DNA of 61,149 bases from Bacteroidota bacterium (lineage in GTDB: Bacteria; Bacteroidota; Bacteroidia; NS11-12g; UBA9320): assembly GCA_016124755.1 (NCBI GenBank), contig WGNA01000023.1, forward strand, positions 1 to 61,149. The letters run 5' to 3'. Below, piece by piece: positions 4,599 to 45,964 of this stretch. Position 1 is the first letter of the stretch, and each line of letters starts with the position of its first letter. The notes beneath the pieces were generated by a model. That model had not been told where the DNA came from and made no database searches. It was given only the letters and a program-made list of their open reading frames with translations. The translations under genes were made by a program, and so were the position numbers.

Positions 4599-4893
4599 AT
4601 GATTTTATAAATGAATTGCTTTAGACAATAACTAACCAACATCTGCAAGCTAGTTATTCAGGTTGGCTGCAAAATCAAGTTAACAAGGAACTCACCTTAT
4701 TCATGTTCACTTTATCTAGATTCTATCCATATGGGTTAAGTTCAGATGATTCATTACCATTTTTTTATACTCAAATTCTTTGGATATTGCGCAAGCATAA
4801 TGCAGTGGTTTTGATCAGCCATTAATAATTAATAATTTTCATGTTCAAAAAATTTCCCGAACATTATCTGTAACCAATAAAAATCTTACACAC
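4599..4893. other. Intergenic region without a recognised feature
   Basis: This AT-rich region lies between the divergent thioredoxin operon and the DUF2652 gene. It should hold the promoter of the rightward gene, but I see no clear TAnnTTTG near 4894, no strong hairpin and no open frame. Confidence 0.5.
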
Positions 4894-5997: not shown

Positions 5998-6241
5998 TCA
6001 AATGATCTTTTATTTCTACCATGAGTAGATTTTCGGAATGTAAGAGCTCTGTCGGCTGTAACAAATAAGCGATTTGTAATCCGCCTACCCTATTAAAATT
6101 AATATATCAAAATATAGACGTTGATGAATTCTCCGACTCGTCAGGTTAACTGTGAAAATCGAACCAAATAGAAATGGGTTCATAATGTTTTCAAAACCAT
6201 TCGTCAGTAATTCCTCTAACTTGCGGGCGCAGTTTAAATCT

Positions 6242-7891: not shown

Positions 7892-7923
7892 TTATTAAAA
7901 CTTATGAATTAACCTATGGTCTG

Positions 7924-7957
7924 CGCATTGGTAAAAACAATAATTATTTCCAATGCG
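7924..7957. terminator. Bidirectional terminator between convergent genes
   Basis: An inverted repeat CGCATTGG (7924-7931) / CCAATGCG (7950-7957) encloses an AT-rich loop. It overlaps the last codons of the leftward DUF1761 gene and lies 33 bp after the rightward cyclophilin gene, so it can end both transcripts. Confidence 0.55.
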
Positions 7958-8369
7958 AAAGAATCAACGCAACAACCAGAAGCGATACGAAGTGGTATCC
8001 GGTATTAATACCAAATAACTTCCACGACTTTCTTTCCCATACTGTGGATCCAAGATCGTTAGGAAAATAGAATCCCAGCCAGGTAAAAATGGCCGCACTC
8101 AATCCGGTTCCGAGAGCATTTGATGCATCCGAACCCGGAACAAACGACCAGGCTCCCATGTTGTGTGCCAGTACCCACGACATGAGAAAATTGCCGATTA
8201 TCATAAAAGCCATTCCTTTCATTAAAACTTTGGGATCCGGTTTTTCATTCATATCGTATCCCATTTCCCGTCCCCAGGCTTTTCCAAAAAGCGGTGTGTA
8301 CCAAAGAAAACCGATAATGAAGTTGACAACAGTTGCAACAACAACAGCCAAGTAATTAATTTCGAGCAT
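7944..8369 (-). CDS. DUF1761 family integral membrane protein
   Basis: I start at ATG 8369 (141 residues), because a TATCTTTG promoter box lies at 8402-8395 just upstream and makes the longer frame untenable. The protein has four hydrophobic segments. The family signature GFLWYTPLFGKAWGREMG follows the first helix, and FTWLGFYFPNDLGSTVWERK and NTGYHFVSLLVVALIL mark the last two. DUF1761 proteins are small inner-membrane proteins of unknown function. The gene stands alone and converges with the cyclophilin gene. Confidence 0.85.
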   Translation of the reverse strand: MLEINYLAVVVATVVNFIIGFLWYTPLFGKAWGREMGYDMNEKPDPKVLMKGMAFMIIGNFLMSWVLAHNMGAWSFVPGSDASNALGTGLSAAIFTWLGFYFPNDLGSTVWERKSWKLFGINTGYHFVSLLVVALILSHWK

Positions 8370-8474
8370 ACATTGTTTTATTAGAGGAGTCAAACAAAGA
8401 TATTCGGAAAGCCGGTACACTCACTATGGCAACGTTTGAAATGTTTAAACAATCCGGATCAAAGTTTTACCCGA

Positions 8475-9977: not shown

Positions 9978-10064
9978 CTCAGGTAATTTAAGTTATCAGA
10001 GTTTAAACAAATATATCCTGTTCAATGAATGATTGATGCCGTGGATTAAAATGTTGATCAACCA

Positions 10065-10092
10065 TTGGAATTCGCAATCAATAGTTATTTTG
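10065..10092 (+). promoter_or_regulatory. Promoter of the TMEM175-type gene
   Basis: TTG (10065-10067) is followed by 18 bp and TATTTTG (10086-10092), a close match to the Bacteroidota promoter. The ATG at 10118 follows by 25 bp. Confidence 0.5.
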
Positions 10093-10117
10093 CAATGGCT
10101 TAAAAAAACCGGAACAT

Positions 10118-10705
10118 ATGCAAAAGAACCGACTCGAAGCCTTTAGCGACGGGGTAATTGCCATCATCATCACGATCATGGTTTTAGAAATTAAAGTGCC
10201 GCACGGAAATGAACTGAAAGATCTCGTTTCTGTGATTCCAGTTTTTCTTAGCTATGTAATGAGTTTTGTCTATCTGGGAATTTACTGGAATAATCATCAC
10301 CACATGTTGCATACGGTGAATCGTGTAACCGGAAGCATTTTATGGGCAAACCTGCATTTACTTTTCTGGCTTTCACTCGTTCCTTTTGTAACCGCCTGGA
10401 TGGGTGAAAATAATTTTAGCGCCCAACCGATGGCGCTCTACGGATTTGTTCTTTTAATGGCGGCCATTTCTTATTTTATTTTACAGAACAAAATAATTAA
10501 ATATCACGGAGGAAAGGATTCGCTGTTGCAAAAAGCAATTGGCAACGATATTAAAGGAAAAATGTCACCGGTTATTTACATTATTGCGATTGCATTTAGT
10601 TGGGTTAATGCCTGGATTTCGGGAGCATTATATATTTTAGTCGCGTTGATGTGGCTCATACCGGATTCGCGAATTGAAAAACAAATTCAAACGCAGGAAA
10701 AATAG
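10118..10705 (+). CDS. TMEM175-family (DUF1211) potassium channel-like membrane protein
   Basis: The protein has 195 residues. The family signature RLEAFSDGVIAI is at residues 5-16, with the FSD motif at 9-11 on the first transmembrane helix. Six hydrophobic segments follow, with WNNHHHMLH after helix 2-3, as in bacterial TMEM175 homologues. These proteins assemble as K+-permeable channels in the cytoplasmic membrane. The single six-helix repeat matches bacterial members, which work as tetramers. No operon partner is evident; the TPR lipoprotein downstream follows after 89 bp. Confidence 0.85.
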   Translation: MQKNRLEAFSDGVIAIIITIMVLEIKVPHGNELKDLVSVIPVFLSYVMSFVYLGIYWNNHHHMLHTVNRVTGSILWANLHLLFWLSLVPFVTAWMGENNFSAQPMALYGFVLLMAAISYFILQNKIIKYHGGKDSLLQKAIGNDIKGKMSPVIYIIAIAFSWVNAWISGALYILVALMWLIPDSRIEKQIQTQEK

Positions 10706-10794
10706 ATTTGAGAAGCGAAAATCCAATAATGAAGAACGAAGCACAAAAAGCATATAGACAACCGAGTTATAGTGTAAGCACATAAAAACAAAAC

Positions 10795-11568
10795 ATGAAA
10801 AATATATTTATCCTCATTGCCATGGTGGCGCTTGCCTCTTGTAGTCAGATTAACCGGTATTCCAATACCATTGATAAGAATTCGGAAGGCATTAATTATA
10901 TGAACCAGAATTTGTATGAAAAAGCCATCAGTTCTTTTCGGGAAGCGCTGGCTTTGCATCTGAACGACAAAGAAGTCCTCAATACGATTTACCGGAATAT
11001 GTCGATTGCTTTTTACCAAACCGATCAGTTGGATTCAGCTGTTAAATATTCCTTTAAAGCGGCCTCACTTTATCCGAAAGATTCTTACGAGTATCTGGTT
11101 AATCAGGCGGATGCACTTACCATGAGTGATAAGGTTGACGAAGCGTTGGTAATGTTGCATCAGGCATACGAATTAAACCCGAAAGACATAGCCGTAAATA
11201 ATTCACTCGGACTCATTTATCTCGGAGAGAGTGGAGATGAGTATTACGATCCTGATCAGGCACTCGAATACAATCTGAATGCGTATAACATCAATAAAGA
11301 CCGGGCGACGGAAGGCGTGTTAGCTCTGAACTATTTTGAACTTGATAATTATGAAAAAGCCCGATATCATTATTATAAAATTTCCATTGAATACCCCAAT
11401 GATGCTGAGAATTTATTCCAGTTAGGGCTTACCGAATTTTACGATGGTAAAACCGAAATGGCGATGAACTATTTCGAACGTGCCGTTAAAATAGATCCCG
11501 AATATCAGGATGCGGTTGATGATGTTTTGGAAGAAGTGACAGAATCTGAAGAACCAAATCAAGATTGA
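10795..11568 (+). CDS. TPR-repeat lipoprotein
   Basis: The protein has 257 residues. A lipoprotein signal peptide ends VALASC (Cys16). At least five TPR units follow, for example NYMNQNLYEKAISSFREAL, DSAVKYSFKAASLYPKDSYEY, DEALVMLHQAYELNPKD and TEMAMNYFERAVKIDPEYQ. The C-terminus is acidic. TPR lipoproteins form scaffolds on the periplasmic face of the envelope. No partner is specified by the neighbours. Confidence 0.8.
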   Translation: MKNIFILIAMVALASCSQINRYSNTIDKNSEGINYMNQNLYEKAISSFREALALHLNDKEVLNTIYRNMSIAFYQTDQLDSAVKYSFKAASLYPKDSYEYLVNQADALTMSDKVDEALVMLHQAYELNPKDIAVNNSLGLIYLGESGDEYYDPDQALEYNLNAYNINKDRATEGVLALNYFELDNYEKARYHYYKISIEYPNDAENLFQLGLTEFYDGKTEMAMNYFERAVKIDPEYQDAVDDVLEEVTESEEPNQD

Positions 11569-11661
11569 ATTTACTTCAACTGAAATCTTTTTATGCTTTC
11601 CGGTTTATCTTTCGAACCTGATTTTTCAAGAGTCTGAAATCAGATTTGAATTAAAATAAAT

Positions 11662-12354
11662 ATGAAAACATGCATTCTCACCCATGCCGAATTACAGGAT
11701 TCGGATGTAACGGCTTACGAAGACATCCGCACCCCGATTGTTGAGCTTATAAAACGGGATTCTCCCGGATTCAAAAAGGGTGATTTTGTATCTACTTTGG
11801 AATTAAACAAGTACCGGCAGCTTTATTTAAAACACCTGATCACGAGTGAGAACCGGGAACTGAATCACCTTGAAAAAGAAGTACTGAATGCCATTCACAA
11901 CAATGAAATATTATCGGAGAATATAGAACCGGATCTTCAGGAATCGCTCACCACCGGACAAAAAATCGCCGATAAAATTGCGGCTTTTGGTGGTAGCTGG
12001 ACTTTTATAATTACGTTTTTTTCTTTTCTGATTTTATGGATGTTGGTGAATATTTTCGTGTTGGCAACCAAGCCTTTTGATCCATATCCATTTATTCTTC
12101 TCAACCTAATTCTAAGTTGTCTGGCGGCGATTCAGGCTCCAATTATTATGATGAGTCAGAACCGTCAGGAACAAAAAGACCGTTCACGTAACGAACACGA
12201 TTTTAAGGTAAATCTGAAGGCTGAATTAGAAATACGTTTGCTGAATGAGAAAATTGATCACATGGTGATTCATCAAAATAAACAGCTCTTAGAGATTCAG
12301 GAGTTGCAACTCGATTATCTGGAACAAATCGTTAAAAATGAAAAAAAGTACTGA
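11662..12354 (+). CDS. DUF1003 family membrane protein
   Basis: The protein has 230 residues. A soluble N-terminal region of about 105 residues precedes the DUF1003 core: TGQKIADKIAAFGGSWTFI, a first transmembrane helix at about 112-135, FDPYPFILLNLILSC with a second helix, then QAPIIMMSQNRQEQKDRSR. A C-terminal coiled-coil-like tail follows (LNEKIDHMVIHQNKQLLEIQ). The function of the family is not established. The stop codon lies inside the first copy of a 67-bp direct repeat. Confidence 0.85.
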   Translation: MKTCILTHAELQDSDVTAYEDIRTPIVELIKRDSPGFKKGDFVSTLELNKYRQLYLKHLITSENRELNHLEKEVLNAIHNNEILSENIEPDLQESLTTGQKIADKIAAFGGSWTFIITFFSFLILWMLVNIFVLATKPFDPYPFILLNLILSCLAAIQAPIIMMSQNRQEQKDRSRNEHDFKVNLKAELEIRLLNEKIDHMVIHQNKQLLEIQELQLDYLEQIVKNEKKY

Positions 12355-12463
12355 CGAATGCCATCTTGTTAATTGAATTAAAGAATAAGTATCGGAAGGC
12401 ATTGTCAGCATAAAATACTGACGAATGCTATTTTGTTAATTGGAATAAAGAATAATTATTGGC
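12351..12463. repeat. 67-bp direct repeat with terminator-like stem after the DUF1003 gene
   Basis: CTGACGAATGCCAT with about 45 bp of following sequence (12351 on) recurs 67 bp later (12418 on). In the first copy CTGACGAATGCC can pair with GGCATTGTCAG (398-408 of this kilobase), leaving a one-base bulge, so the unit may also act as a terminator. The first copy contains the DUF1003 stop codon. A related GACGAATGCCAT word recurs at about 33029. Confidence 0.55.
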
Positions 12464-12498
12464 AGACTTAGGTTGCCTTTTTGAGAATTCGATTTTTT

Positions 12499-12526
12499 AT
12501 CCGCCGAAGCTTTAGCGCAGGCGGAT
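12499..12526. terminator. Hairpin of the ATCCGCC/GGCGGAT repeat type, between convergent genes
   Basis: ATCCGCC (12499-12505) pairs with GGCGGAT (12520-12526), with T-rich sequence on both sides. It lies between the convergent DUF1003 and GH106-like genes and could end both transcripts. The same palindrome recurs at 28718-28745, so it is also a dispersed repeat. Confidence 0.6.
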
Positions 12527-12539
12527 TGGTTTTGGATTT

Positions 12540-14546
12540 TCAAAAAAAGCTCTTCTGCATTTCCCTCGGTAGTACCACAGGATCCTTTGGAACAAAGGAG
12601 ATGTCAATAAAACTAAGTTCGCCTTTTGAATCGATTTTAATCATCACGCTCTGGTATGGTTTGAATTCTATTTTTCGTGTTACAGTTTTCCCATTAACAC
12701 GAAAAGTTAAGGTATAGAAATCTGATTTTTTCATGAGCGACTGTCCGGAATAAATCGGATATTCCAAATTTGCAGAAAGTCGTTGCGCTAAAAAAATATA
12801 ATGTGTGCTGTCGCTCTCAACCCGACACCAATAGGGTGGAATACTGTCTCCTTCAATCAACGGCGGATGTAAAATAACTTCTCCAAGGTCTGAAGAAACA
12901 TTGGGTAAAGATTTTAATTCATTTAACCAATTTCCATAATTTTCGTCTTTGTTTTTTCCGGGTTGAATAGGTGAACTTTTTAAACAAATTTTTAATCCCG
13001 ATTTAGCTAATTCCAAAATTCTCTTTAAAGCCCGTACGTCCAGATATTTTACATCTACATACAAAGAAGAAAAAGCAGCATCTCCTACTGAGAGTTTTCC
13101 ATTTCTAAATTCCGCTTCTTCCAGATAGTGCCGGTTAATCCACAAAGGATGATATTTTTTTAGTTCCTCATGTATTTCCACATACCGCATTTCGTATTCA
13201 CCCCAAACAAAAACACGTTGTTTTTCCGGAGGCAATGCACCTTTCATCACCGCATCTTCATAAGGAATATAAACCGCCACATCGCTGTAGGTTTTTCCAC
13301 GTTGCAGAATATTGGAAACCTTTTCCATGTAAGAATTAAAAGCCGGAAGTTCCGGAGTGAGACTACCTCCCGGACCGAAATACGTAGTTGCAAAAAATTC
13401 GATCGTATCGGAACCTTCGGGATTATACGGCATTCCATGATAAAAATGTTGATTTACACCCTGAGCAAAAAGTGCATCGGCGACCATTTTGCAATCTGCC
13501 GTATTTTCTTTTTTGAGATATGTCGCTTTGAATCCATACATGCAAGTGAACGTCTCACTCGAAACCATGCGCCGGGAAGAAAGACAAGCCGCAGAACTCA
13601 CAATTCGAGAATAATCAGGATTGTTGAGCATGGCTTCGGTTTCGGGAATATCGACGAGGCCATAGGTTGTCATTACATCGGTGGGAGAAGCCAGACACTG
13701 AACTCTTGACCACGCCCCTAACCTATGGCACGTTCGAACATACGGCTTGTAAAATCCGTTGGTAACATATTCATCCAGATGCATCATGTAATCGTACCGC
13801 ACATTTGGAAATGAATCTAGTTGTGCTTCCATAAAAGGTAAAATGTCGTATCCAAATTTCGACTGGAACGATTCCTCAAATCCGGGTGTCCAGACTTTAA
13901 GTTTCGAATTCATTCGTATTTCCCATGAATCCGTAAACAGCGCCGGTTTGTGACCTTTCAAAGGTTCTATGAGCGCATCAGAAACCGGTTTGGCGAACAG
14001 GTTAAAGGCATTGCTGTCGCAGTGATTTATTACTAATTGTTTTTCGGGCCAGCACCACGCAAACGTTAGCCATTGTCGAAAGGAAGTATCGCCGTAAATC
14101 TGTGTTCCGTATTCTTTGGGTATGTTGCCGCCGGCGATCGGCCACGAACTCCCGAAGGTAAAGTCGCAGGCAAGTCCGATCGAATCAGCGTATCGCTTGG
14201 TGTATGCTACGATAGCAGACCATTCCGGACTAAGCCATTTTTGTGCAGTTGTGTCTTTTGGATAGAAATGATGGTGGTTTCTCTGATAATCCAATTGGTA
14301 CCGGTAAAGCGGATAAACCCACGCGATTTCAACGCCTCCGAAATTATTTGCCTTCGCCCAATCGAGCTGGTATTCTACGTCCTTTTCTTTTATTTCCGTT
14401 GCGAACCACCACCAGCGGGTGCAGGGTTTGGAAGTCTGATAAAATGGCAAAGGAGAATTTTTTAAGAATTGTGCCCGTGCAGATAAATTTGAAAAGAGCG
14501 CAATGAGAGTGAAGAATAGAACGAAGTTGCAGCGCGTCGGTTTCAT
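12540..14546 (-). CDS. Secreted glycoside hydrolase, GH106 (alpha-L-rhamnosidase)-like
   Basis: The protein has 668 residues with a signal peptide ending SARA. Motifs in GH106 order: CTRWWWFATE and NNFGGVEIAWVYPL near the start, FTFGSSWPIAGG, DSWEIRMNSK with WTPGFEESFQSKFGYD, DIPETEAML, SSETFTCMYG, and GVNQHFYHGMPYNPEG. The acidic residues in DSWE, PETE and SSET lie where family catalytic or metal-binding acids are expected. It is shorter than most GH106 enzymes (often around 1000 residues) and has no T9SS domain, so it is probably periplasmic. The likely substrate is a rhamnose-containing polysaccharide or oligosaccharide; this is family inference. No SusC/SusD genes lie nearby. Confidence 0.7.
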   Translation of the reverse strand: MKPTRCNFVLFFTLIALFSNLSARAQFLKNSPLPFYQTSKPCTRWWWFATEIKEKDVEYQLDWAKANNFGGVEIAWVYPLYRYQLDYQRNHHHFYPKDTTAQKWLSPEWSAIVAYTKRYADSIGLACDFTFGSSWPIAGGNIPKEYGTQIYGDTSFRQWLTFAWCWPEKQLVINHCDSNAFNLFAKPVSDALIEPLKGHKPALFTDSWEIRMNSKLKVWTPGFEESFQSKFGYDILPFMEAQLDSFPNVRYDYMMHLDEYVTNGFYKPYVRTCHRLGAWSRVQCLASPTDVMTTYGLVDIPETEAMLNNPDYSRIVSSAACLSSRRMVSSETFTCMYGFKATYLKKENTADCKMVADALFAQGVNQHFYHGMPYNPEGSDTIEFFATTYFGPGGSLTPELPAFNSYMEKVSNILQRGKTYSDVAVYIPYEDAVMKGALPPEKQRVFVWGEYEMRYVEIHEELKKYHPLWINRHYLEEAEFRNGKLSVGDAAFSSLYVDVKYLDVRALKRILELAKSGLKICLKSSPIQPGKNKDENYGNWLNELKSLPNVSSDLGEVILHPPLIEGDSIPPYWCRVESDSTHYIFLAQRLSANLEYPIYSGQSLMKKSDFYTLTFRVNGKTVTRKIEFKPYQSVMIKIDSKGELSFIDISFVPKDPVVLPREMQKSFF

Positions 14547-29674: not shown

Positions 29675-30322
29675 TTAAGAAATAAAGTCCAGCTCTTTCG
29701 CTTTTGCCAGGATTTCAACCAGCCGGTTTGTTCCGAATTTTACACCGATGTTTTTGCGGTGCGTGCTCACCGTATGTTTGCTGATAAAAAGTTTTTCCGC
29801 TATTTCTTCTGTTGTCATTCCCTCCGAAAGCAATTCAAGAATCCGCAGTTCTCGTTTGGTGATTATTATTTTTTTCCCGGCTTCTTCAATTACAGGAGTA
29901 TATTTTTCATTCAATACGACTTTAATTTCCGGATCGTAATAAACAGAACCAGAAGCAACCGTTTCAATTCCTTCTCTTAGAACATTGTATTCTGCACTTT
30001 TTAAGACATATCCCATTGCCCCGGCTTCCACCATTTTTCGCACGGTCTTCACATCGCTGTGCATCGAGAGAATAATAATTTTAACGGCAGGACGAATTTC
30101 AATCGCTTTATGCAGAAATTCCATACCATTCATTTGAGGCATAGAAACGTCGAGAACTATCAAATCAATCTTATTCTTCCAGATAAAATCCAGTGCCACA
30201 TGCGGATCCGAAAAAACACCGCATAATTCTACCGATTCAATTTTTGAAACAAGAGATCGTAAACCGTCCAGAATCATCTGGTGGTCGTCAACAATTATTA
30301 CGTTGGATTTTTCAGGCAACAT
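29675..30322 (-). CDS. NarL/FixJ-type response regulator
   Basis: I start at ATG 30322 (215 residues), giving an 11-bp overlap with the kinase stop. The receiver domain has the acidic pair Asp12-Asp13 and the phosphoacceptor Asp58 (LIVLDVSMPQ), and Lys in GYVLKSAEYN. A LuxR-type HTH follows at about residues 145-205 (ITKRELRILELLSEG, TTEEIAEKLFISKHTVSTH). It is the output partner of the overlapping kinase and should bind DNA as a dimer once phosphorylated. Targets are not known. Confidence 0.9.
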   Translation of the reverse strand: MLPEKSNVIIVDDHQMILDGLRSLVSKIESVELCGVFSDPHVALDFIWKNKIDLIVLDVSMPQMNGMEFLHKAIEIRPAVKIIILSMHSDVKTVRKMVEAGAMGYVLKSAEYNVLREGIETVASGSVYYDPEIKVVLNEKYTPVIEEAGKKIIITKRELRILELLSEGMTTEEIAEKLFISKHTVSTHRKNIGVKFGTNRLVEILAKAKELDFIS

Positions 30323-32162
30323 CAGCAATCGGAATTTCAATGGTAACCGTAGTTCCCGACTGTTCGTGGCTGTCTATCCAGATTTTTCCATTAATCGATT
30401 CAATCCGGTTGCGCATATTAGTTAGCCCAATACCATCAGATTTATTATTCGAATTAAAACCTTTACCATCGTCTTCCACCATGGCTACAACCTGATTTCC
30501 GGATCTCGTCAGACTTATTTCAATGGTTTTGGCCTGAGCGTGCTTTAACGAATTACTAATAAGTTCCTGAATCACCCTGTATAACGCAATTTCCTGAGCC
30601 GGTGTGAGTGCATTCTCCATGTCTGTTTCATATAGTTCGGTTTGAATTTTTCCACTTGAATTAATAGAAGTAATTAAATTATTCAGCGCATCAGAAAGTC
30701 CGAAATCAGCCATTAAACCACCCGCCATATCATGCGATATTTTGCGTACTTCCGAAATGGATTCCTGAAGAATATTCTTAACGGCTTTATGGGCCTCCTG
30801 CGAGGTTTGTTCCAATTCGGGATGTTGTTCTTCAATGGCTCCGTAATTCAGCTTTAATGCACCGAGAAGGCTGCCAACTCTGTCGTGTAATTCTGTAGCA
30901 ATACGTTTGCGTTCCTTTTCTTCAGCGACAATCATAGCCTCAATCCGCTGACTTTCCTGATTGTGTACAATAGATTCAATTTTTTGCTCGGCTAATTCTT
31001 TATCCCTTGAGGCAACTCTTCGGGTAAGCCTGAGGTTTATTGCAATAAATATAGCGACCGAAACAGTCGCTATCAACAACAGAAAAAGTAGTTTTTGAAT
31101 GCGGCTCCGGTTTTTATTTTCTTCAGCTAATAATTTATTCTCTGCATCCTTTTCTGCGAGGTTGTATTTTACTTCGAATTCGGCAAAATCCTTAATTCTA
31201 TCAACTTTATATTTTCCCTCAAGTGTACTTACAAGTGTTTTATAAATTAATCTTTGTTCGTTCCACGATGAGGAATCAAGTAGTAACAGTTTATTTTTGA
31301 GAATGGCAGTTTTGAGATCAGCCAAATGGAAAGAATCAGCTAACAATATAGCAGTATCATATAATTTTAGTGCATTAACATTATCAAAATCATCTTTTTG
31401 CAGAATATCCGCCATATCAAGATACAACGCTGGTAAATCACCATAATGCTGGCTGTCTATCGCAACACTCAAAGCTCTTTTTAAATAGAACATAGCAGTA
31501 TCCCGATTGATATCCATTTGATACAATCCGTAATTTTTATATGCAAAAAGGAGAACTCTGGAGGTCGTTCGTTTTCTTTTTGCCCAATCCAAGGATTTTT
31601 TAAAATAATAACCAACGGAATCATCTTGACCAGCAATTGAGTGCGCGATGGCAATATTTGTATAGATCCCTGACAGATATTGTAAACTGTCATTAATTCT
31701 ATAAATCTTCAGAGCACTATCGTAAAACTGTAACGCAGATCGATCATCTCCCAGATGTTGATAAAGCTCACCAATATTAGAAAAAGATTTGGCTTCATCA
31801 ATCGGATTTGATGTTGTTCTTCTTATCTCTAAAGCCTGACGCTGCAGAATAATTGCAGAATCAAATTCACTGTCAATGTATTTACATATCCCTAATACGG
31901 AAAGTGCATTTGCCTCACCTTCCTTATATCCGATCAATCTCGATTTTTTAAGATTCCGATTTAAAGTAAAAATACTGGAATCTCTGTTCGATCGAATATC
32001 CTTGTGTGCAAGAGCCGTGGTAGAATCAATAAACCTGATGCTACCAGACTGATCCCGTTTAATTTCCTTTTCACATGATGTCAGAAGATAAATGCAAATC
32101 AGAAATAGAACGAAAAAATCAGGCAGCTTCCTGAGTGCGGTGTTTGCCGCCAACTTCTGCAT
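30312..32162 (-). CDS. TPR-containing sensor histidine kinase (HisKA_3 type), lipoprotein-like signal
   Basis: I start at ATG 32162 (616 residues), which begins a signal peptide ending IYLLTSC. The frame is open to 32213 but that would increase overlap with the upstream gene. Order: periplasmic TPR repeats (about 70-300: AKSFSNIGELYQHLGDDRSA), one transmembrane helix (LLFLLLIATVSVAIFIAINL), coiled coil, a HisKA_3 phosphorylation site in ATELHDRVGSLLGAL, and a HATPase domain with N-box ELISNSLKHA and DDGKGF. This is the common Bacteroidota layout in which the TPR region senses a periplasmic signal. It overlaps its cognate regulator. Confidence 0.88.
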   Translation of the reverse strand: MQKLAANTALRKLPDFFVLFLICIYLLTSCEKEIKRDQSGSIRFIDSTTALAHKDIRSNRDSSIFTLNRNLKKSRLIGYKEGEANALSVLGICKYIDSEFDSAIILQRQALEIRRTTSNPIDEAKSFSNIGELYQHLGDDRSALQFYDSALKIYRINDSLQYLSGIYTNIAIAHSIAGQDDSVGYYFKKSLDWAKRKRTTSRVLLFAYKNYGLYQMDINRDTAMFYLKRALSVAIDSQHYGDLPALYLDMADILQKDDFDNVNALKLYDTAILLADSFHLADLKTAILKNKLLLLDSSSWNEQRLIYKTLVSTLEGKYKVDRIKDFAEFEVKYNLAEKDAENKLLAEENKNRSRIQKLLFLLLIATVSVAIFIAINLRLTRRVASRDKELAEQKIESIVHNQESQRIEAMIVAEEKERKRIATELHDRVGSLLGALKLNYGAIEEQHPELEQTSQEAHKAVKNILQESISEVRKISHDMAGGLMADFGLSDALNNLITSINSSGKIQTELYETDMENALTPAQEIALYRVIQELISNSLKHAQAKTIEISLTRSGNQVVAMVEDDGKGFNSNNKSDGIGLTNMRNRIESINGKIWIDSHEQSGTTVTIEIPIADVA

Positions 32163-32469
32163 TTGTATAATTTTTAGAAGTTGATTCTGCTTTTGCAGGG
32201 TCGTTATCAACACTGGTGAGAATATTCAATGGAACACTTTCGGGCGGACAAACAACCGGTGCATCACATAGATCTATAGTCACCGGTGCTCCGGGACCAG
32301 TTGAAGAGAAATTCAGTTTAATCTCCGTTACATACAAACCTTCGGTTTGCTGTATCTCCGCATTCATAAAAACCAAACCCGGTTCAGGTTGAATCATCAA
32401 TGAAAAATGCGTCGGCGCCCCGCAAGGATCTCCCGCACTTTTAAAAATGGTGTAATTGACAGAACTCAT
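32119..32469 (-). CDS. Small protein of unknown function overlapping the kinase start
   Basis: The protein has 116 residues. ATG at 32469 lies just after a TAAAATTTTG-like box. It is beta-rich with three Cys (AGDPCGAPTH, TIDLCDAPVVCPP), and has no signal peptide. The 3' end overlaps the kinase gene by 44 bp in another frame, which points to a single transcript and coupled translation. I recognise no family. Confidence 0.5.
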   Translation of the reverse strand: MSSVNYTIFKSAGDPCGAPTHFSLMIQPEPGLVFMNAEIQQTEGLYVTEIKLNFSSTGPGAPVTIDLCDAPVVCPPESVPLNILTSVDNDPAKAESTSKNYTNAEVGGKHRTQEAA

Positions 32470-34524: not shown

Positions 34525-35694
34525 TCAATGCAGCACCAATAATTTCCGGCTACCGATAAATTCTCCTTCTTTATAAAAAGAAATAAAATACGATCCTGCC
34601 GGGAATTCGCTCACATCTAATTGATTTCCGGATGTGTTCTCGCAAAATACAGAACCCCTCATATCTGTGACGGAATAAGTATAATTCTCATTTGCATCCG
34701 GGAAAATGATTTGCACATTCTCGTCAGACGGATTTGGATAGAAAGTAAATTCCCGTATTTCAGAAATTGAGTTTATTCCCACCGAATTTGCATCCAACCG
34801 GTTTTGATGAATATCAATTTCAATCGGCACATCCGTACTTGCACCATCGTAATAAACTGTAACGAGCGGACTAACTTCCCCCTTGCGGATAAACCGCGTT
34901 TCTACAGACGTAGAAAGCTGCCCCTGTGACAATCCGAATGCTGTAAGAATTGCGATCGAAGCCGGTTTGCCATTCAGATAAAAACTGTCGTACGTATCAA
35001 CGTGATAAACTGTTTGCAAAACATCAATTTCGAAATGTTGTCCGGATTTTAAATCGCGGACTTTGATTTTTCCCCAACCAACAACCGAGTCGGATATCAC
35101 ATTGGTGGTTCTTCTTTCGCCCGGAGAATTGTTGAGACCGGCTAAGGTTAATGTGATATTGAACGAAGTAGTGTGTTTACTGGTTACTATATAATTATCG
35201 TTGTGTTTTACCGGAAATTTCAATTCCGTTTCGGGTGTTGAATATGTAATTTTCTGAACGGGAAAAACTAATTTGTCGTTGCTATTACCCGTAAATGCAC
35301 CAATAGCAATGGTTTGTTCTGTTACGATTTCTTCGCCAATTGCCGAAAGGTGATTTGAGTTAAGTTCGCTTGCCTGAACTGCGTCGTAAGAAAGTCCACC
35401 TCCGAAAGGATAATAAATATCTTCCTGAAAACTTGCAGAAGGAAAATTCACCGAAGTATTGGAATTGCGTTCAAAAACTAATGAAGAGGCATACGTAAGA
35501 GAAGTAAGATCCCAGTTTCCACCAGACTTATGATCATAAATATCGGTGAATGAAGACAGGTCATACACCAGCCCGAACGTATCTCTGCCAAAAACCTGTG
35601 CAGAACTCAAATTATTAATAACGATTTGTGCCCGGGTGTCATAAGACTGTATCAGACATGTTAAAGTTAAAATGATAACGAAACTCTTTTTCAT
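34525..35694 (-). CDS. T9SS-secreted protein of a three-member paralogous family (paralog 1)
   Basis: I start at ATG 35694 (389 residues), the first residue of the signal peptide MKKSFVIILTLTCL ending TRAQ. The ~300-residue central domain shares with the other two paralogs: a SNDKLVFPVQK segment, FNITLTLAGLNNSPGER, DSVVGWGKIKVRDL, FYLNGKPAS, GEVSPLVTVYYD and IHQNRLDANSVGI. A type A T9SS domain follows (FTFYPNPSDENVQI ... SRKLLVL). I do not recognise the central domain. It should be exported across the outer membrane and kept on the surface or released. It is closest to paralog 3. Confidence 0.75.
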   Translation of the reverse strand: MKKSFVIILTLTCLIQSYDTRAQIVINNLSSAQVFGRDTFGLVYDLSSFTDIYDHKSGGNWDLTSLTYASSLVFERNSNTSVNFPSASFQEDIYYPFGGGLSYDAVQASELNSNHLSAIGEEIVTEQTIAIGAFTGNSNDKLVFPVQKITYSTPETELKFPVKHNDNYIVTSKHTTSFNITLTLAGLNNSPGERRTTNVISDSVVGWGKIKVRDLKSGQHFEIDVLQTVYHVDTYDSFYLNGKPASIAILTAFGLSQGQLSTSVETRFIRKGEVSPLVTVYYDGASTDVPIEIDIHQNRLDANSVGINSISEIREFTFYPNPSDENVQIIFPDANENYTYSVTDMRGSVFCENTSGNQLDVSEFPAGSYFISFYKEGEFIGSRKLLVLH

Positions 35695-35745
35695 TGAAAC
35701 AACCTTCTTAAACAACCAAAATTAGCAATTCCCTTCCGTAAAAAA

Positions 35746-35778
35746 GAATCCGCGCAGAGAACAAATCTGCGCGGATTC
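35746..35778 (-). terminator. Terminator of paralog 2
   Basis: A perfect 13-bp stem GAATCCGCGCAGA (35746-35758) / TCTGCGCGGATTC (35766-35778) with a 7-base loop is followed on the minus strand by a T run. It separates paralog 2 from paralog 1, so the two are transcribed independently. Confidence 0.85.
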
Positions 35779-35791
35779 CGGAATCATAATT

Positions 35792-36988
35792 TTAATGTGC
35801 AAGAATTAATTTTTGTGTGCGTACTGGCGTCCCGTTATTACAGATGGTGAGAACATAATTACCATTGATTAAATCGGAAACATCAACAGAATACAAATCA
35901 CCTGCATTGTCTTTAATTTCAACATTGCGAAAAACTCGTCCGTTTAAATCCGACACAGAATATGACCAGTTTCCGGACTGATCCGGAATTCGAAAATAGA
36001 TTTTGTCGTTTACCGGATTTGGAAAAACCATGATCGTACTCTCATTTTTTACAGATGAAATTCCGGTTGAATTCAGATCTAACCTATTTTGATTAATTTC
36101 AATTCGAACCGGTTTGCGGGTATCATTCCGATCGTAGTACACTGCAACAACCGGAGCTATTTCCCCATCGCGGTAAAAGTAAGTTGCCTTCTGCAGAATT
36201 CTTTCTTCTTGTTTGGTTCCCATTTTTGATAAAACACTATTCGACATGGGATTCCCATTCATGGTGTACATCTGAGTCCAGCTTTCATCGTGCTGAACCT
36301 GCAACACCGGAATCTCATACGTAACACCGGTAAACATGCTGGTAATTTTAATGTTGCCCCAGCCTCCAACCGTATCGATAATGGAGAAATAGGAAGTGCA
36401 TTCACCGGTTGCATTGCTGAGACCTTCGGAAGTAAGCGTTAAATTAAAATTGAATTTCCAGTTGTCTTGCGTGTACCAGATATTCATGATCGGATCAGCG
36501 TACTCCATAGGATAATGTATCCAGGTAACCGGATACTGGTTGGAAAGTTTTTGAGCCGGAATCACCAGATTATCATTTGCGTTGCCAGAGAACGGTAATA
36601 AAGAAAAAGTTTGTGAATCCATAATCTCAATCCGATCATAAACGATTTCAGAATAACCGGTGTCCATAACCTGGATAATTCTAAGGCCCAATGCACCATT
36701 AAAAGGATATATCGCATTCTGCACAAACAGGGAATTAGGGTAGGATCCGGTAGTGTCTTTAATTCGTTGACGCATCAAAGGAACGGATTCGTACTGTACA
36801 CTTCTAAAATCCCACAAAGCGTTGGATTTGCGCAGATTCAACGTGTCGAAGGAGGCCAGATTTTTAACAATACCCAAAGTGTCTGTCTCAATAAAGCGGT
36901 TCGATGCATACGGTTGAATCGTGACCTGTGAAGAAACATGCAAAGTAATACTGCATGCAGCCAACAGCAGAGTAAATTTGCCTTTCAT
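35792..36988 (-). CDS. T9SS-secreted protein of a three-member paralogous family (paralog 2)
   Basis: The protein has 398 residues. A signal peptide ends HVSSQ. It shares the family pattern: ETDTLGIVKNLASFD, GNANDNLVIPAQK, FNFNLTLTSEGLSNATGE, DTVGGWGNIKITSM, TYEIPVLQVQH, GEIAPVVAVYYDRND and INQNRLDLNSTGI. It ends with a type A T9SS domain (IMVFPNPVNDKIYF). It is the most diverged of the three and lies directly downstream of the LytTR regulator, 400 bp away. The molecular function is unknown. Confidence 0.75.
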   Translation of the reverse strand: MKGKFTLLLAACSITLHVSSQVTIQPYASNRFIETDTLGIVKNLASFDTLNLRKSNALWDFRSVQYESVPLMRQRIKDTTGSYPNSLFVQNAIYPFNGALGLRIIQVMDTGYSEIVYDRIEIMDSQTFSLLPFSGNANDNLVIPAQKLSNQYPVTWIHYPMEYADPIMNIWYTQDNWKFNFNLTLTSEGLSNATGECTSYFSIIDTVGGWGNIKITSMFTGVTYEIPVLQVQHDESWTQMYTMNGNPMSNSVLSKMGTKQEERILQKATYFYRDGEIAPVVAVYYDRNDTRKPVRIEINQNRLDLNSTGISSVKNESTIMVFPNPVNDKIYFRIPDQSGNWSYSVSDLNGRVFRNVEIKDNAGDLYSVDVSDLINGNYVLTICNNGTPVRTQKLILAH

Positions 36989-37394
36989 AAATAATAATGT
37001 TACGTCTAAAAATCATAATTTGTTAGACGAATATTAAAAAAAAGAAAAGCATTCTGTTGTTCAAAATTTAATTAATACGATGGAATGACAAATCATTAAA
37101 TGATTCTCATTATGGATATATCAAGATTGTAAATCAGTTTTGGATCCGCTTCGCACAATTCATTTTGTACTTTTAATTACTAAAATAGAAATGATTCGCT
37201 AGTTCGTGTAATGAAGCGAATAAACATTAATCATTATACCCATTACGGATAAATTCTTGGTATGTGATTGTTCTCAGGGGTACTTCTCGCCCGCAACCTA
37301 TGAACCTAAAAATCACTGGCGTATAATCGAAGCCCTCTGAATTAGAAACACGAAAAAACTGATCGGCTTCAGTGTATTAAAGAAGGTCGCGATA
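36989..37394. repeat. Gene-free region with a copy of the GATCCGCTTCGC repeat
   Basis: Around 37125-37215 GATTGTAAAT, then GATCCGCTTCGCACAATTCA and following bases match the 33130-33430 region. No gene or clear hairpin is seen. It separates the LytTR regulator from paralog 2. Confidence 0.5.
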
Positions 37395-38087
37395 TCACAG
37401 TTGATTTTTTAGATCGCCGTAGAATGTTTTTCCCACCGGAACCTTTATATCCTGTACAATAACTTCCGAACTATTAAGCGCGGTAATCCTTCGACGATTT
37501 ACTGCAAACGATTTATGCACCTGAATTAATCCATCGTCTACACTTTGAAGAAACTCCTTTAATGTCTTACGCTCTGCATATTTTTTATTTTGATCCGTAT
37601 ATATTTCAATATAATTTCCATCTGCTTTCACATAAAGTATATCGTTAATACAAATCTTTAAGAGAGAGCCGCCGTGTCTGATTAAAATAAACGGCTCATT
37701 CTCAACAGCCGTTACCGAAAGAGCTATTGCCAACTCGATTGACGTAAAAACATCGTTATTGTCGAAGGGCTTTACCACATACCCTTTTGGCAGGGTTTTC
37801 TTCACTCTCTCAACGGTGTCTTTATCCGAATGTGAAGTGATAAACAAAAATGGAATTCCAAAATCTCTATTTATGGTTTCCGCCAAATCTACGCCGTCTT
37901 TTTTGCCTTGTAGAACAACGTCGAGTAAACACAAATCCGGCATTTCCTGAAGAATAAGTTCGAGAGCTTCTTCGTAGCTGATGGCAATACCTGTAACAGA
38001 ATACCCCAGATCCTGTAGAATAAATTTAAGGTCGTCGGCTATTACCAGATTGTCCTCAACAATTAGAATACGTAAATCTTTTTTCAT
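37395..38087 (-). CDS. LytTR-type response regulator
   Basis: The protein has 230 residues. The receiver domain has Glu11-Asp12 and the phosphoacceptor Asp56 (DLCLLDVVLQG), followed by the conserved Lys in GYVVKPFDNN. A LytTR DNA-binding domain occupies about 130-230 (ILYVKADGNYIEIYTDQNKK, LKEFLQSVDDGLIQVHKSFA, VNRRRITAL, IKVPVGKTFY). Its ATG overlaps the stop of the upstream kinase (ATGA), so the two are translationally coupled. It probably controls nearby genes; the flanking secreted paralogs are candidates, by position only. Confidence 0.9.
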   Translation of the reverse strand: MKKDLRILIVEDNLVIADDLKFILQDLGYSVTGIAISYEEALELILQEMPDLCLLDVVLQGKKDGVDLAETINRDFGIPFLFITSHSDKDTVERVKKTLPKGYVVKPFDNNDVFTSIELAIALSVTAVENEPFILIRHGGSLLKICINDILYVKADGNYIEIYTDQNKKYAERKTLKEFLQSVDDGLIQVHKSFAVNRRRITALNSSEVIVQDIKVPVGKTFYGDLKNQL

Positions 38088-40039
38088 GCACTAATGGTTT
38101 CCCGGAACTGCACCACAAAACTTTGCTTGGGAGACGATAGTATTTTAAGGTTTCCGCGAAGCTGGCGGCTAAGATTTTTAACTAGCCGGAGCCCCATACT
38201 TGGCAGACTTTCGATTTCGAGATTATCGGGCAAACCAGTACCGTTATTCTGCAATTCCAACACATAACCGTGCTGTTCATTATCGTGATTCAGAGTAATA
38301 TTAATTTCACCATCACTGAGATTATTAAATGCATGTTTCATGGTATTGGTAACCAATTCATTTAAAATTAGTCCGAGTGGAATTGCGGTATCCATATCGA
38401 GAGAAATATCTTTTGCGTCTATATTCAAATGAACTTTTTTATTCCCCTCATTAAAATTCTTAACAATGTAATCGCACAGATCTTCAATATATTCCTGCAT
38501 GGCAATGGTGGAAACCGTATCGTTTAAATAAAGTTTCTGATGAAGCAGTGAAATACTCTTGAGTCTGCCCTGTCCGTCGAGCATTGCTTTCTTTACGATT
38601 TCGTCTTCAGATGCGCGGGTTTGAAGATTTAAAAGACTACTGATGGTTTGTAAATTGTTTTTAATGCGATGATGGATTTCTTTTAATAATAATTTCTTTT
38701 GATCCAGTAATTCAGCCAATTCTTTATTCTGACGACTTAACAACTCCCGGTCTTTCCGGCTGCGTTGCAAAAGACGGAACGACATGGCGGCAATTACAAG
38801 CGCCGTGCAAACCATGAGAATCAGAAATATGTTTCGCCAACGGGCTGCAGAAAGTTTTGCTTCGTTTAATCTGGATGCAGTTTCAAGCCGGTCTAAATCA
38901 TTTTCCTTTTTTTGAGTTTCATATTTAATCTGCATGTCTGCGATGGAGGCTGCCATTCCCTCATTGTATGTACTGTCTTTAATTCGGATAACAGAGGTCA
39001 GCAGTTCTTCCAGTTTATTTTTCTCTCCGAGTGCCGCATAGCATTTCGCCAGAACCGTTGAAATGCGAATCATTTTCTCCCGGAAATTAGTTTCTCTGGC
39101 CAGATCCATAGCCTTTTCCAGATATAACATAGCCTTGGCATTATCCCCTTTTAGTTGATTTCCCATCCCCAAGAGACAGTTGAGATCCATATCAACTTCT
39201 TTGTTGGACCGGTCTAACCAAAGACTGTCGGCATTATGCGCAGCCGCTAAAACCGCATCTCCGTCACCGAGGTTATATTGAGCATAACCGATATTAGACC
39301 AAACGGCAGTCATCCTTCCTTTACAATTGCACAACTCAGTTTGTTCAAGGGATTTGCTAAGCGAACTGAGCGCTTTTTTGTAATCCCCATCCTGACTATA
39401 CACATTTCCCATATTCATATAAATAACACCGGATGTGCTGTGGTCGCCTTTATCTAATGATATTTTCAAGGCTTCTTCGTAAACAGAAATGGATTTGTTT
39501 AACTGATTATTCTCGCGGTAAATTCTGGCCAGATCAACTAGATTTTTCGCTCTTTGTTCATCACCCAGATTTTGCTCGTCTATTACTTTTAAACTGTATA
39601 AAACAATTTCCAAAGCTTCATCCAATTTACCCTTTTTCTCAAGACAATATGCTGCACCAGAACAACAAACAACCACTCCCTTATAGTTTTCTGCATCCTT
39701 TAATAATTCAATTGCCAGCTTCTGTACTTCAAGGGCTTCGTCAATTCTGCCCAAAGGTTCATAAGTAAATCCCATCATCTGGAGGGCAAGTCCTTCCAGA
39801 TTTTTATTCCCGGCTTTTTTACCGGTGGCTCGCGCATTTTCAGCGTATTGTGCAGAGATTTGGTTATCGAGCGAATAATACTTTAATGAAATTTTCCGGT
39901 TGAGGACACTTCGCATTGAGTCGCCGGTTGCTTTTGAAAGTTGATTTTTGAGATCGTCGATTTCACCACTCTGGGCAAAAAGAGAAGAACCGAGTGCCAA
40001 CCAAAACAAAATAATACAGGTAAATTTCAGACGTAACAT
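38084..40039 (-). CDS. TPR-containing sensor histidine kinase (HisKA_2 type)
   Basis: I start at ATG 40039 (651 residues), beginning the signal peptide MLRLKFTCIILFWLALGS ending LFAQ. Seven or so TPR units lie in the periplasmic part (ALQMMGFTYEPLGRIDEALE, SGVIYMNMGNVYSQDGDYKK). One transmembrane helix (IFLILMVCTALVIAAMSF) and a coiled coil follow, then a HisKA_2 phosphorylation site in LKEIHHRIKNNLQTISSLL and a HATPase domain with ELVTNTMKHAF and NGTGLPD. It pairs with the overlapping LytTR regulator. A terminator lies just upstream, so it needs its own promoter or read-through. Confidence 0.9.
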   Translation of the reverse strand: MLRLKFTCIILFWLALGSSLFAQSGEIDDLKNQLSKATGDSMRSVLNRKISLKYYSLDNQISAQYAENARATGKKAGNKNLEGLALQMMGFTYEPLGRIDEALEVQKLAIELLKDAENYKGVVVCCSGAAYCLEKKGKLDEALEIVLYSLKVIDEQNLGDEQRAKNLVDLARIYRENNQLNKSISVYEEALKISLDKGDHSTSGVIYMNMGNVYSQDGDYKKALSSLSKSLEQTELCNCKGRMTAVWSNIGYAQYNLGDGDAVLAAAHNADSLWLDRSNKEVDMDLNCLLGMGNQLKGDNAKAMLYLEKAMDLARETNFREKMIRISTVLAKCYAALGEKNKLEELLTSVIRIKDSTYNEGMAASIADMQIKYETQKKENDLDRLETASRLNEAKLSAARWRNIFLILMVCTALVIAAMSFRLLQRSRKDRELLSRQNKELAELLDQKKLLLKEIHHRIKNNLQTISSLLNLQTRASEDEIVKKAMLDGQGRLKSISLLHQKLYLNDTVSTIAMQEYIEDLCDYIVKNFNEGNKKVHLNIDAKDISLDMDTAIPLGLILNELVTNTMKHAFNNLSDGEINITLNHDNEQHGYVLELQNNGTGLPDNLEIESLPSMGLRLVKNLSRQLRGNLKILSSPKQSFVVQFRETISA

Positions 40040-40081
40040 TCTCTTGTGATTAATTAATCTGATAAAAAAAAAGCAATAAAA

Positions 40082-40113
40082 AAGGCGGTAATGCCACATA
40101 GCACCACCGCCTT
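40082..40113 (-). terminator. Terminator of paralog 3
   Basis: AAGGCGGT (40082-40089) pairs with ACCGCCTT (40106-40113), and on the minus strand a long T-rich run follows. It lies 15 bp beyond the stop of paralog 3 and insulates the kinase gene. Confidence 0.85.
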
Positions 40114-40127
40114 CAAGAGAGAAAAAT

Positions 40128-41312
40128 TTACTGTTTGGAAAGGAACATCCCCTCTCCTACCGGCTGGTTGTTCAACAACACACGAACAATATAGCGGCCG
40201 GACGCTAAATCATTTACATTAATAAGTGTAGTGAATTCACCGAGCTCGCCGGTTTGAATTGCACGACCATAAATATCACTGATTTCGAAAGACCAGTTTC
40301 CGTTTTGTGCAGGCCTGTCGATGGTGAATTGATTATCATTTACCGGATTCGGATATACTTTTATTTCAGCAGCAAGAGCATTCAATACTTCAATACCCAC
40401 TGAATTTTCTTCGAGACGATCCTGCACAATATCAAATCTGTCGATGGTCGCAGAGGTGGCATCGGCATATTCAATTGCAATCAAAGGATTCACCTCATCT
40501 TTGCGAAAGAACTTCATGGTGCGATCGTTAACCGTGTTGTTTTGTGAGAGTCCGAAAGCAGCAAGCATTTGTGCTGGAGCCGGAGCACCACCAAGATAGA
40601 AACTATCAACCACAACTACTCTGTGGCTAACCTGCAAGACCGGAATATTATAAGTTAATCCAGTGTTGCGGTGTTTTACTTTTACCGAACCCCAGCCAAC
40701 TACAGAATCGGTGGTATTATAGAAAGTTTTACGCACTCCCTGAACGTTGTTTAAACCAAAGGCAGCAACCGTAATGTTGAATTTTGTTGAGCGTGAATTG
40801 CTGGATGTGAAAACATCACCGTAAGTCATTGGGAATTTTTGTTCCTTAATTCCGGAAGTATAAACAATTGTTTGCACCGGAAAGGTAAGATTGTCATTAG
40901 CTCCGCCAGTAAGTGCAGTTAATGGAATCACCTGTTCATCCTTTATTTCTTCACCCTGACTTGCCAAACCATTTCCACTTATTTTCACGTACTGTGTTGA
41001 GGTGTAAGAAAGTCCGCCGGCAAAAGCGTAAAAAATATCCTTTTCAAAAGATGCATCTGTAAAAGTTGTGCTGTTGGCGGCTTCCCGAGCCCATAGAAAA
41101 GCACTTGTATTGGTTGCCGTTGAAACATCCCAGGTGGCATTGGTTGCCGCCTTTCCCATCATGGCAAAATCGTCTTTGTTATTTGCTTTGATAAAGGTAT
41201 CTGTAAGAACTATTTTAGAACTAGTGATACCGTCGATGGTAATTTGTGCTTTCGCGCTAAAGAAGGAAGCGAAGACAAAAGCTAATGTAAATAAGGTAAA
41301 CTTCGTTTTCAT
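40128..41312 (-). CDS. T9SS-secreted protein of a three-member paralogous family (paralog 3)
   Basis: I start at ATG 41312 (394 residues; a second ATG lies two codons earlier). A signal peptide ends SFFSAKAQ. Family pattern: DIFYAFAGGLSYTSTQ, GGANDNLTFPVQT, FNITVAAFGLNNVQGVRK, DSVVGWGSVKVKHRNTG, YNIPVLQVSH, FYLGGAPAPAQMLAAFGLSQ, and EVNPLIAIEY. The type A T9SS domain is IKVYPNPVNDNQFT. It resembles paralog 1 over its whole length, pointing to a local duplication now separated by the two-component genes. The function is unknown. Confidence 0.75.
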   Translation of the reverse strand: MKTKFTLFTLAFVFASFFSAKAQITIDGITSSKIVLTDTFIKANNKDDFAMMGKAATNATWDVSTATNTSAFLWAREAANSTTFTDASFEKDIFYAFAGGLSYTSTQYVKISGNGLASQGEEIKDEQVIPLTALTGGANDNLTFPVQTIVYTSGIKEQKFPMTYGDVFTSSNSRSTKFNITVAAFGLNNVQGVRKTFYNTTDSVVGWGSVKVKHRNTGLTYNIPVLQVSHRVVVVDSFYLGGAPAPAQMLAAFGLSQNNTVNDRTMKFFRKDEVNPLIAIEYADATSATIDRFDIVQDRLEENSVGIEVLNALAAEIKVYPNPVNDNQFTIDRPAQNGNWSFEISDIYGRAIQTGELGEFTTLINVNDLASGRYIVRVLLNNQPVGEGMFLSKQ

Positions 41313-44146: not shown

Positions 44147-44923
44147 ATGAAGACAATCAAATTATCCGGCATTCTTGCCCTTTTTATAATGATCGTATTT
44201 ACACAAAGTTGTAAGAACGACGATGATAATTCAAACCCGACACCTACTTCAACCGATACTACAACCGCACATTTTCATCTCCAATTTAATCATGTGTGGG
44301 CCATGGCTGAATCTCCGTTCGCCCTCAATACCGAATTGATTCACCCGATGACCGGAGATACAATGAAATTCACCATGTTGCGGTATTATGTTTCTAATAT
44401 ACAAGTTAAAAAAACAGACGGAACCTGGTGGAGTGAAGCCAACAGCTATCATATAATTGATGTTTCAGATGCCGAACAAACCGAAATTGAAGTGGACGAT
44501 GTTCCGGAAGGAACCTATTCTGCAATCCGGTTTATGTTCGGGGTTGACAGTGCGCATAACGTTTCCGGAGCTCAGGACGGAGCACTTTCTGTTTCGGAAG
44601 GAATGTTCTGGAGCTGGAACAACGGATACATTATGATGAAGGCAGAAGGAACTTCCAATCAGGTTAGCGGCGGAAGTTTCTCGTATCACATCGGCGGATT
44701 TTCCGGTACCAACAACGTAGTAACTCAAAAGGAATTTTCGTTGGAATCATCACCCTTAACCGTCAAAGAAAATACGCATCCCGAAATTGTGGTGAAAGCC
44801 AATCCGGCGCGATTATTTCACACTGTGGGAAGTATGACCTCTCTCAGCGCTACGATCCACATGCCCGGAGCAACAACCACCCAAATGGGAAAAGACTTTT
44901 TCGATGCGGCGGTTTTAGAATAA
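44147..44923 (+). CDS. mbnP: MbnP family copper-binding lipoprotein
   Basis: The protein has 258 residues. A lipoprotein signal peptide ends FTQSC (Cys22), then an acidic Asn/Thr linker. Family features: HLQFNHVWAMAESPFALNTE, MLRYYVSNIQVKK, AIRFMFGVDSAHNVSGAQDG and MFWSWNNGYIMMKAEG with Trp155 and Trp157. In the studied MbnP a Trp is oxidised to kynurenine by the partner heme protein MbnH, creating a copper site; the Trp residues here are candidates. It is co-oriented with, and 6 bp or so from, the mbnH-like gene. No methanobactin precursor is visible. Confidence 0.85.
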   Translation: MKTIKLSGILALFIMIVFTQSCKNDDDNSNPTPTSTDTTTAHFHLQFNHVWAMAESPFALNTELIHPMTGDTMKFTMLRYYVSNIQVKKTDGTWWSEANSYHIIDVSDAEQTEIEVDDVPEGTYSAIRFMFGVDSAHNVSGAQDGALSVSEGMFWSWNNGYIMMKAEGTSNQVSGGSFSYHIGGFSGTNNVVTQKEFSLESSPLTVKENTHPEIVVKANPARLFHTVGSMTSLSATIHMPGATTTQMGKDFFDAAVLE

Positions 44924-44929
44924 ATTTCT

Positions 44930-45964
44930 CTGCATTTATTATTCAAAATACGATTCAAACAGATTACCTGCTTCCTATTTTTAGTTGCAGGTATTCTGTT
45001 GTTTTCGGGTTGCCGGAAGGATAATCTCACGATTGATATCGCTCAAAAAGAGACGGTTGTTCTGCCCGAACATTTTCCGCCACCGTTTTATTCAAATGAT
45101 CTAAATGCATTTTCTGCCACACGAATTAATTTGGGCAAAATGCTCTTCTTTGATCCCGTATTATCGGTCGACAGCACAATTTCCTGCGGCAGTTGTCACA
45201 ACAAATTATTTGCCTATTCTGATCGGGGCAGTTCACTCAGCACGGGAATAAATCAGCAAATAGGAATTCGCAATTCACCTCCGATATTCAATGTATTATG
45301 GAATAAAAGTTTTATGTGGGACGGAGGTGTGAATCATCTCGAATTTATGCCGCTCGCTCCGATTGAAAACGAATTGGAAATGGGTGAAAAGATCAAACAC
45401 GTAATTGCAAAACTCAACCGGATTCCTGAATACCGAAATCAGTTTAAACAGGCATACGGAATTGATTCGATCACTGATAAATATTTTCTGTTTGCCATGG
45501 CGCAGTTTCTCGGTTCGCTCATTAGTGCAAATTCTGCATACGACAGTGTTCAGCTCGGACTAAAACCATTTTCGGTTACCGAACAATCCGGTTACGATTT
45601 ATACAAACAGAAATGTGCCACGTGTCATGCCGAACCCCTTTTTACGGATTACAGCTTTCGAAACAACGGATTGGCAAACACATCAGATTCGGGAAGAATG
45701 CGAATTACATTGCTGCCGGAAGACCGCAATAAGTTCAAAGTACCGTCACTGCGCAATCTGGATTATTCGTTTCCGTATATGCACGACGGTCGATTCAAAA
45801 CTTTGCCGGAAGTTCTGGATCATTATTCTGAAAATATAATTTCATCACCAACACTCGATCCCGAACTAAAACCAATGTATTTTTCCGAAACCGAAAAGGA
45901 GCAACTTCTGGCTTTTTTAAAAACTTTGAACGATCCGGGTTTTGCAGGGCGGTTGAATCCGTAA
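44930..45964 (+). CDS. mbnH: MbnH / cytochrome c peroxidase-like di-heme lipoprotein
   Basis: The frame, open from the mbnP stop, encodes a lipoprotein signal peptide (FLFLVAGILLFSGC) upstream of the first ordinary start codon (TTG 44999). I therefore place the start at CTG 44930, or another rare codon nearby; this is uncertain. Two heme c sites are present: CGSCH (about residues 86-90) and CATCH (about 229-233). LGKMLFFDPVLS, RNSPPIFNVLWNKSFMWDGG and FKVPSLRNLDYSFPYMHDG are typical of the MauG/peroxidase superfamily. It should work in the periplasm and modify or oxidise the neighbouring MbnP. Confidence 0.85.
   Translation: MHLLFKIRFKQITCFLFLVAGILLFSGCRKDNLTIDIAQKETVVLPEHFPPPFYSNDLNAFSATRINLGKMLFFDPVLSVDSTISCGSCHNKLFAYSDRGSSLSTGINQQIGIRNSPPIFNVLWNKSFMWDGGVNHLEFMPLAPIENELEMGEKIKHVIAKLNRIPEYRNQFKQAYGIDSITDKYFLFAMAQFLGSLISANSAYDSVQLGLKPFSVTEQSGYDLYKQKCATCHAEPLFTDYSFRNNGLANTSDSGRMRITLLPEDRNKFKVPSLRNLDYSFPYMHDGRFKTLPEVLDHYSENIISSPTLDPELKPMYFSETEKEQLLAFLKTLNDPGFAGRLNP

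Follow-up and report, generated by a model that had tools for sequence, protein, structure and literature searches.

A family of T9SS-exported proteins with a predicted barrel-like domain recurrently encoded beside sensor and regulator genes in Bacteroidota

In the genome of a member of the Bacteroidota (NS11-12g; UBA9320), genes for three related secreted proteins lie on both sides of a histidine kinase and a LytTR-type response regulator, an arrangement that raises the question of whether such a secreted protein is the output of the adjacent sensor, an input to it, or an ordinary neighbor. The window analyzed is a 61,149-nt stretch of DNA (assembly GCA_016124755.1, contig WGNA01000023.1), and relatives of its secreted proteins were examined by fetching 10–20 kb around each family gene and typing the neighbors by Pfam.

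The three genes occupy positions 34525–35694 (P1), 35792–36988 (P2), and 40128–41312 (P3) of the minus strand. Their likely ATG starts are at 35694, 36988, and 41312, respectively, the listed open reading frame of P1 opening with a TTG codon at 35715. Each product consists of a signal peptide, a central domain of ~280 residues, and a C-terminal type IX secretion system (T9SS) tail, and the three can be aligned over their whole length. Identity over ~278 residues of the central domain is 39.6% for P1/P3, 35.7% for P1/P2, and 28.4% for P2/P3, and the most diverged paralogue, P2, sits on a long branch of the family tree. The open reading frames and these identities bear out the original prediction of three paralogous secreted proteins, and the motifs that it quoted align across P1–P3.

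Export of these proteins is predicted from several features. All three have hydrophobic N-termini that, judged by eye, are signal peptides ending in Ala/Ser-Gln, before Gln. The T9SS tails ascribed to them earlier were recovered as Por_Secre_tail matches (E 5e-10 to 2e-9), and the C-terminal sorting domain scores 38–40 bits against a cut-off of 27 with PF18962 (Pfam) and 32–37 against a cut-off of 23 with TIGR04183 (NCBIfam). The genome also encodes the T9SS translocon protein SprA (SprA_N, E 4e-155). Together, the signal peptide, sorting domain, and translocon mark P1–P3 as putative type A cargo of the T9SS, for which secretion and processing of the tail would be expected. This genome has just three copies of the central domain; ~80 further matches are limited to the T9SS-tail part of the profile. 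A 353-residue secreted-looking protein without a Pfam or NCBIfam match is encoded convergently on P1 (33431–34492, plus strand), and farther away a gene for a secreted protein is followed by one for a di-haem-peroxidase-like protein (44147–45964, plus strand), which we take to resemble an MbnP/MbnH-type pair.

Between P2 and P3, on the same strand, lie a TPR sensor histidine kinase (38084–40099) and a REC-LytTR response regulator (37395–38087), joined by an ATGA overlap, as expected for the translationally coupled pair proposed originally. The kinase combines a signal peptide and TPRs with HisKA_2 (PF07568, 2.5e-25) and HATPase_c (PF02518, 3.5e-8) domains, and has a single hydrophobic segment, a putative membrane anchor, at residues 423–441. 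Its listed start at 40099 falls within the terminator that follows P3; a likelier start is the ATG at 40039, with which the signal peptide begins. The regulator contains REC (PF00072, 4e-19) and LytTR (PF04397, 3e-16) domains. A few kb from P1, at 29675–32213 (minus strand), another TPR sensor kinase, of HisKA_3 type, is encoded together with a REC-LuxR regulator, so that two sensor systems bracket the cluster.

Two terminator-like stem-loops divide the cluster, one of 15 pairs at the P3/kinase junction (40114–40081) and one of 14 pairs at the P2/P1 junction (35779–35745, minus strand like the first). They are the best two of 14 terminator-like sites, 6.4 being expected from shuffles, and correspond to the two strong terminators noted in the original prediction. 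The expected promoter region of P2 is a non-coding stretch of 406 bases (36989–37394), while the 160 bases upstream of P3 (41313–41472) are common to a divergent gene at 41473. These two regions have in common 12 of the 13 bases of AACAAATTATSAT, at -36 of P2 and -22 of P3, which could be a promoter element or a chance match. Upstream of P1 there are only 97 bases, and these contain the terminator of P2. The original prediction had suggested looking for a LytTR direct repeat shared by the upstream regions; a search for 9-mers spaced 20–23 apart upstream of 12 family genes found none above shuffles for P1, P2, or P3. The one candidate among the 12 regions belongs to a relative, at L068 (P 0.003, uncorrected for the number of regions).

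No family in Pfam, NCBIfam, PHROGs, or PADLOC matches the central domain above its cut-off, in agreement with the original failure to assign it; a phage or defence origin was rejected for lack of any PHROG or PADLOC match of weight. A contig profile search with the three window sequences alone gave no match, whereas one with a mixed alignment did. Relatives were found in 19 of 395 genomes sampled from the class (~5% of the sampled Bacteroidia), in 5 of 38 from the family, and in 8 of 394 from the phylum. P1–P3 look like members of an undescribed family of T9SS-exported proteins. The typical relative is a single gene of 390–450 codons with its own T9SS tail, and most genomes have one copy; higher numbers were seen in G417 (four, on different contigs), G353 (three), and L086 (three genes in tandem). 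In Hymenobacter the domain is located at the end of proteins of 670–690 residues. The three-copy arrangement of the window is local, since the family is elsewhere mostly single-copy and has one other tandem expansion, at L086 (positions 2997–13609), where two of the three genes have two central-domain copies each and the array surrounds an M43 peptidase with a T9SS tail. In the family tree, P1 and P2 are sisters and are joined by a homologue from genome G009 before P3 (support 100/99), so the duplication seems to be older than the split from G009. Between the window and G009, identity is 58% in the catalytic part of the kinase, 42% in its TPR part, and 41% at best in the cargo domain.

AlphaFold2 modeling of whole P3 gave a pLDDT of 87, and the tail of the full-length model matched T9SS C-terminal domains. 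This tail dominated the fold search, and the central domain (residues 23–300; 40413–41246, minus strand) was consequently modeled alone, with a pLDDT of 94.3 and a pTM of 0.88. The model predicts a strand-rich, barrel-like fold. Its top VIA-align matches are the Bacteroidales proteins 3fzx (BF2203; Z 8.4, 167 aligned residues, 4.1 A), which is titled YmcC-like, and 4fvs (BDI_3050; Z 8.1, 172 aligned, 4.3 A), with E. coli YmcC itself (2in5) at Z 6.5 (134 aligned, 5.2 A). Although these YmcC-like proteins are the best structural matches, they are only 5–8% identical to the domain, the next unrelated match, the NanC porin, scores Z 7.4, and Foldseek returned no match for the central domain at E <= 0.001. 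The YmcC-like fold is the nearest, weak match to the model; a Z near 8 may reflect no more than a common arrangement, and the match serves as a lead rather than an assignment.

These results bear on the coat or recognition system suggested in the original prediction, in which three co-regulated variants would form a surface layer or recognize partners. Three copies diverged to 28–40% identity in one place would suit such a system, as would the tandem genes of L086 with their doubled domains, yet most genomes have one copy and the fold searches found no coat-like or lectin-like match for P3. We regard this explanation as very unlikely.

Comparison of neighborhoods revealed that relatives adjoin sensors of several designs. 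A TPR-HisKA_2 kinase with a REC-LytTR partner, identified by Pfam, is found in the window and at L065, L066, L067, L069, L072, L094, L096, and L098, while a TPR-His_kinase and LytTR stand beside L068 and a Reg_prop/Y_Y_Y His_kinase and LytTR are divergent at L032. Elsewhere the neighbor is a 7TMR-DISM hybrid kinase with AraC output (L078, L085, and L093), a TPR hybrid kinase with AraC output (L103), a Reg_prop HisKA_3 kinase (L083, in Hymenobacter busanensis), or a TPR-LuxR protein (L091 and L092). The partner types are non-homologous between loci. Several other large neighbors had the size of kinases but proved to be a protease, FtsK, tRNA synthetases, CotH, and PKD proteins. At L066 (11333–12037) and L069 (11329–12033) the family gene adjoins an OmpR-type regulator, and the two regulators share 98% identity as against 75% for the two family genes.

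Gene order also varies. The order cargo-kinase-regulator, as for P3 in the window, recurs at L065, L094, L096, and L098; kinase-regulator-cargo is found at L066 and L069, and divergent arrangements at L067 and L072. At all five cargo-kinase-regulator loci, the cargo and kinase genes are separated by a stem-loop that differs in sequence (the stretch folded there gives -20 to -35 kcal/mol), which fits strong expression of the cargo with partial read-through into the regulators but is no proof of it.

After loci were collapsed at 60% identity, with the window left out, 43 non-redundant family loci remained, and at 13 of these the gene immediately next to the family gene encodes a sensor or regulator. 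This is a slight underestimate, as a 7TMR-DISM protein adjoining L097 was missed by the seed search. In a matched control, for which 60 regions surrounding T9SS cargo genes were drawn from six family-bearing genomes, 3 of 81 cargo genes (3.7%) had such a neighbor (Fisher p = 6e-5), a p value that is too optimistic because shared ancestry was not modeled and loci with an adjacent sensor cluster on the tree (12 label changes vs 17.8 when shuffled), so that the loci are not fully independent. Signalling genes fill 16.9% of slots at distance 1 from the family gene, 10.5% at distance 2, and 3.3% over distances 4–8, and the mean density of LytTR genes across 20 family-bearing genomes is 2.5 per Mb. 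HisKA_2 kinases number 1–7 per genome in eight genomes, in two of which the sole copy adjoins a family gene; this is an illustration and not a test because these genomes were picked for the linkage, and multiplied per-genome chance values were dropped for the same reason. About two thirds of relatives have no recognized sensor neighbor and partner types vary widely; the domain is thus not always near LytTR/TPR kinases, a point on which the original prediction had suggested a profile search. The linkage is recurrent, not obligatory, and the domain can work without a sensor. The original idea of a secreted family linked to its own sensor is backed by the comparison with control cargo and seems right in outline; a coat role and control by the LytTR regulator are hypotheses.

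The same clustering, and the many members without a recognized partner, would be expected if these were ordinary T9SS cargo genes that stand beside sensors through descent from a few old arrangements, with no functional link. We consider this unlikely, given the low adjacency of control cargo, the persistence of linkage across loci that differ in partner type and gene order, and a kinase tree, albeit poorly resolved, in which the partner kinases do not form a single clade.

The explanation that we prefer, with a probability of about one half, is that at loci like that of the window the family gene, encoding a soluble, barrel-like, T9SS-exported domain, is an output switched by the locally encoded sensor. 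The signal peptide of the kinase would direct the export of its TPR part, which would detect a condition in the envelope or outside; the HisKA_2 kinase would phosphorylate the LytTR regulator, which would activate its own P3-kinase-regulator unit and the P2 and P1 genes; and the terminators after P3 and P2 would ensure that the cargo is expressed far more strongly than the genes downstream. Once exported by the T9SS, P1–P3 would act at the cell surface or beyond it, their barrel-like domain probably binding a ligand or surface partner. A regulated output is favored by the excess of adjacent sensors over control cargo, the linkage to unrelated sensor architectures, its persistence through changes in gene order, the stem-loop at all five cargo-kinase junctions, and the TPR-LuxR proteins of L091 and L092. 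With neither a signal peptide nor a transmembrane segment, the latter look cytoplasmic and are easier to reconcile with a regulated output than with a periplasmic sensor that has the secreted protein as its physical ligand. The output reading is weakened by the missing LytTR repeat, the relatives without a sensor neighbor, and the clustered adjacency, and at P1 by the short upstream region occupied by the terminator of P2.

In the main rival reading the direction is reversed, and the exported protein passes a surface signal on to the sensor encoded beside it. This has a precedent in the role proposed for PorA (PGN_0123) of Porphyromonas gingivalis, a T9SS tail-bearing surface protein tied functionally to a two-component system: without PorA, PorXY-SigP output falls, and it is regained through a mutation in PorY (PMC7712824). 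Most partner sensors of the family have signal peptides, transmembrane segments, and extracytoplasmic TPR, propeller, or 7TMR-DISM parts, which would suit reception of such a signal. These sensor parts are, however, unrelated between loci, the L091 and L092 regulators appear to be intracellular, and direct PorA-PorY contact was not detected in the PorA study itself (PMC7712824). An input role is possible but doubtful. PorA also differs in having a FimH-like Ig domain and feeding PorXY-SigP, whereas the window family has a barrel-like domain, adjacent genes, and a LytTR-type regulator; PorA was not among the PDB matches listed for the P3 models.

Other TPR HisKA_2 kinase and REC-LytTR systems, found both in the window genome and in related genomes, have the same domain make-up, but the pair in the window differs in being bracketed by copies of the secreted family. 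The NCBIfam model for FimS, a TPR kinase of Porphyromonas, matches the window kinase over residues 107–625 (8e-18), although at 64 bits against a cut-off of 600 the kinase is not a FimS equivalent. No description of this pairing of secreted protein and sensor turned up in the literature searched.

For most T9SS cargo proteins, function and control are not known. The linkage of a domain that no family model describes to sensors of several unrelated designs offers a direct handle, pointing at each locus to a regulator that could be deleted and an output that could be measured. Tentatively, the repeated linkage of an exported, barrel-like family to non-homologous sensors might mark a portable extracellular module of Bacteroidota, in which a secreted protein and the kinase encoded nearby are joined in a feedback loop spanning the envelope. 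If the protein does feed back on its sensor, it would extend PorA, the single known case of a T9SS cargo in signalling.
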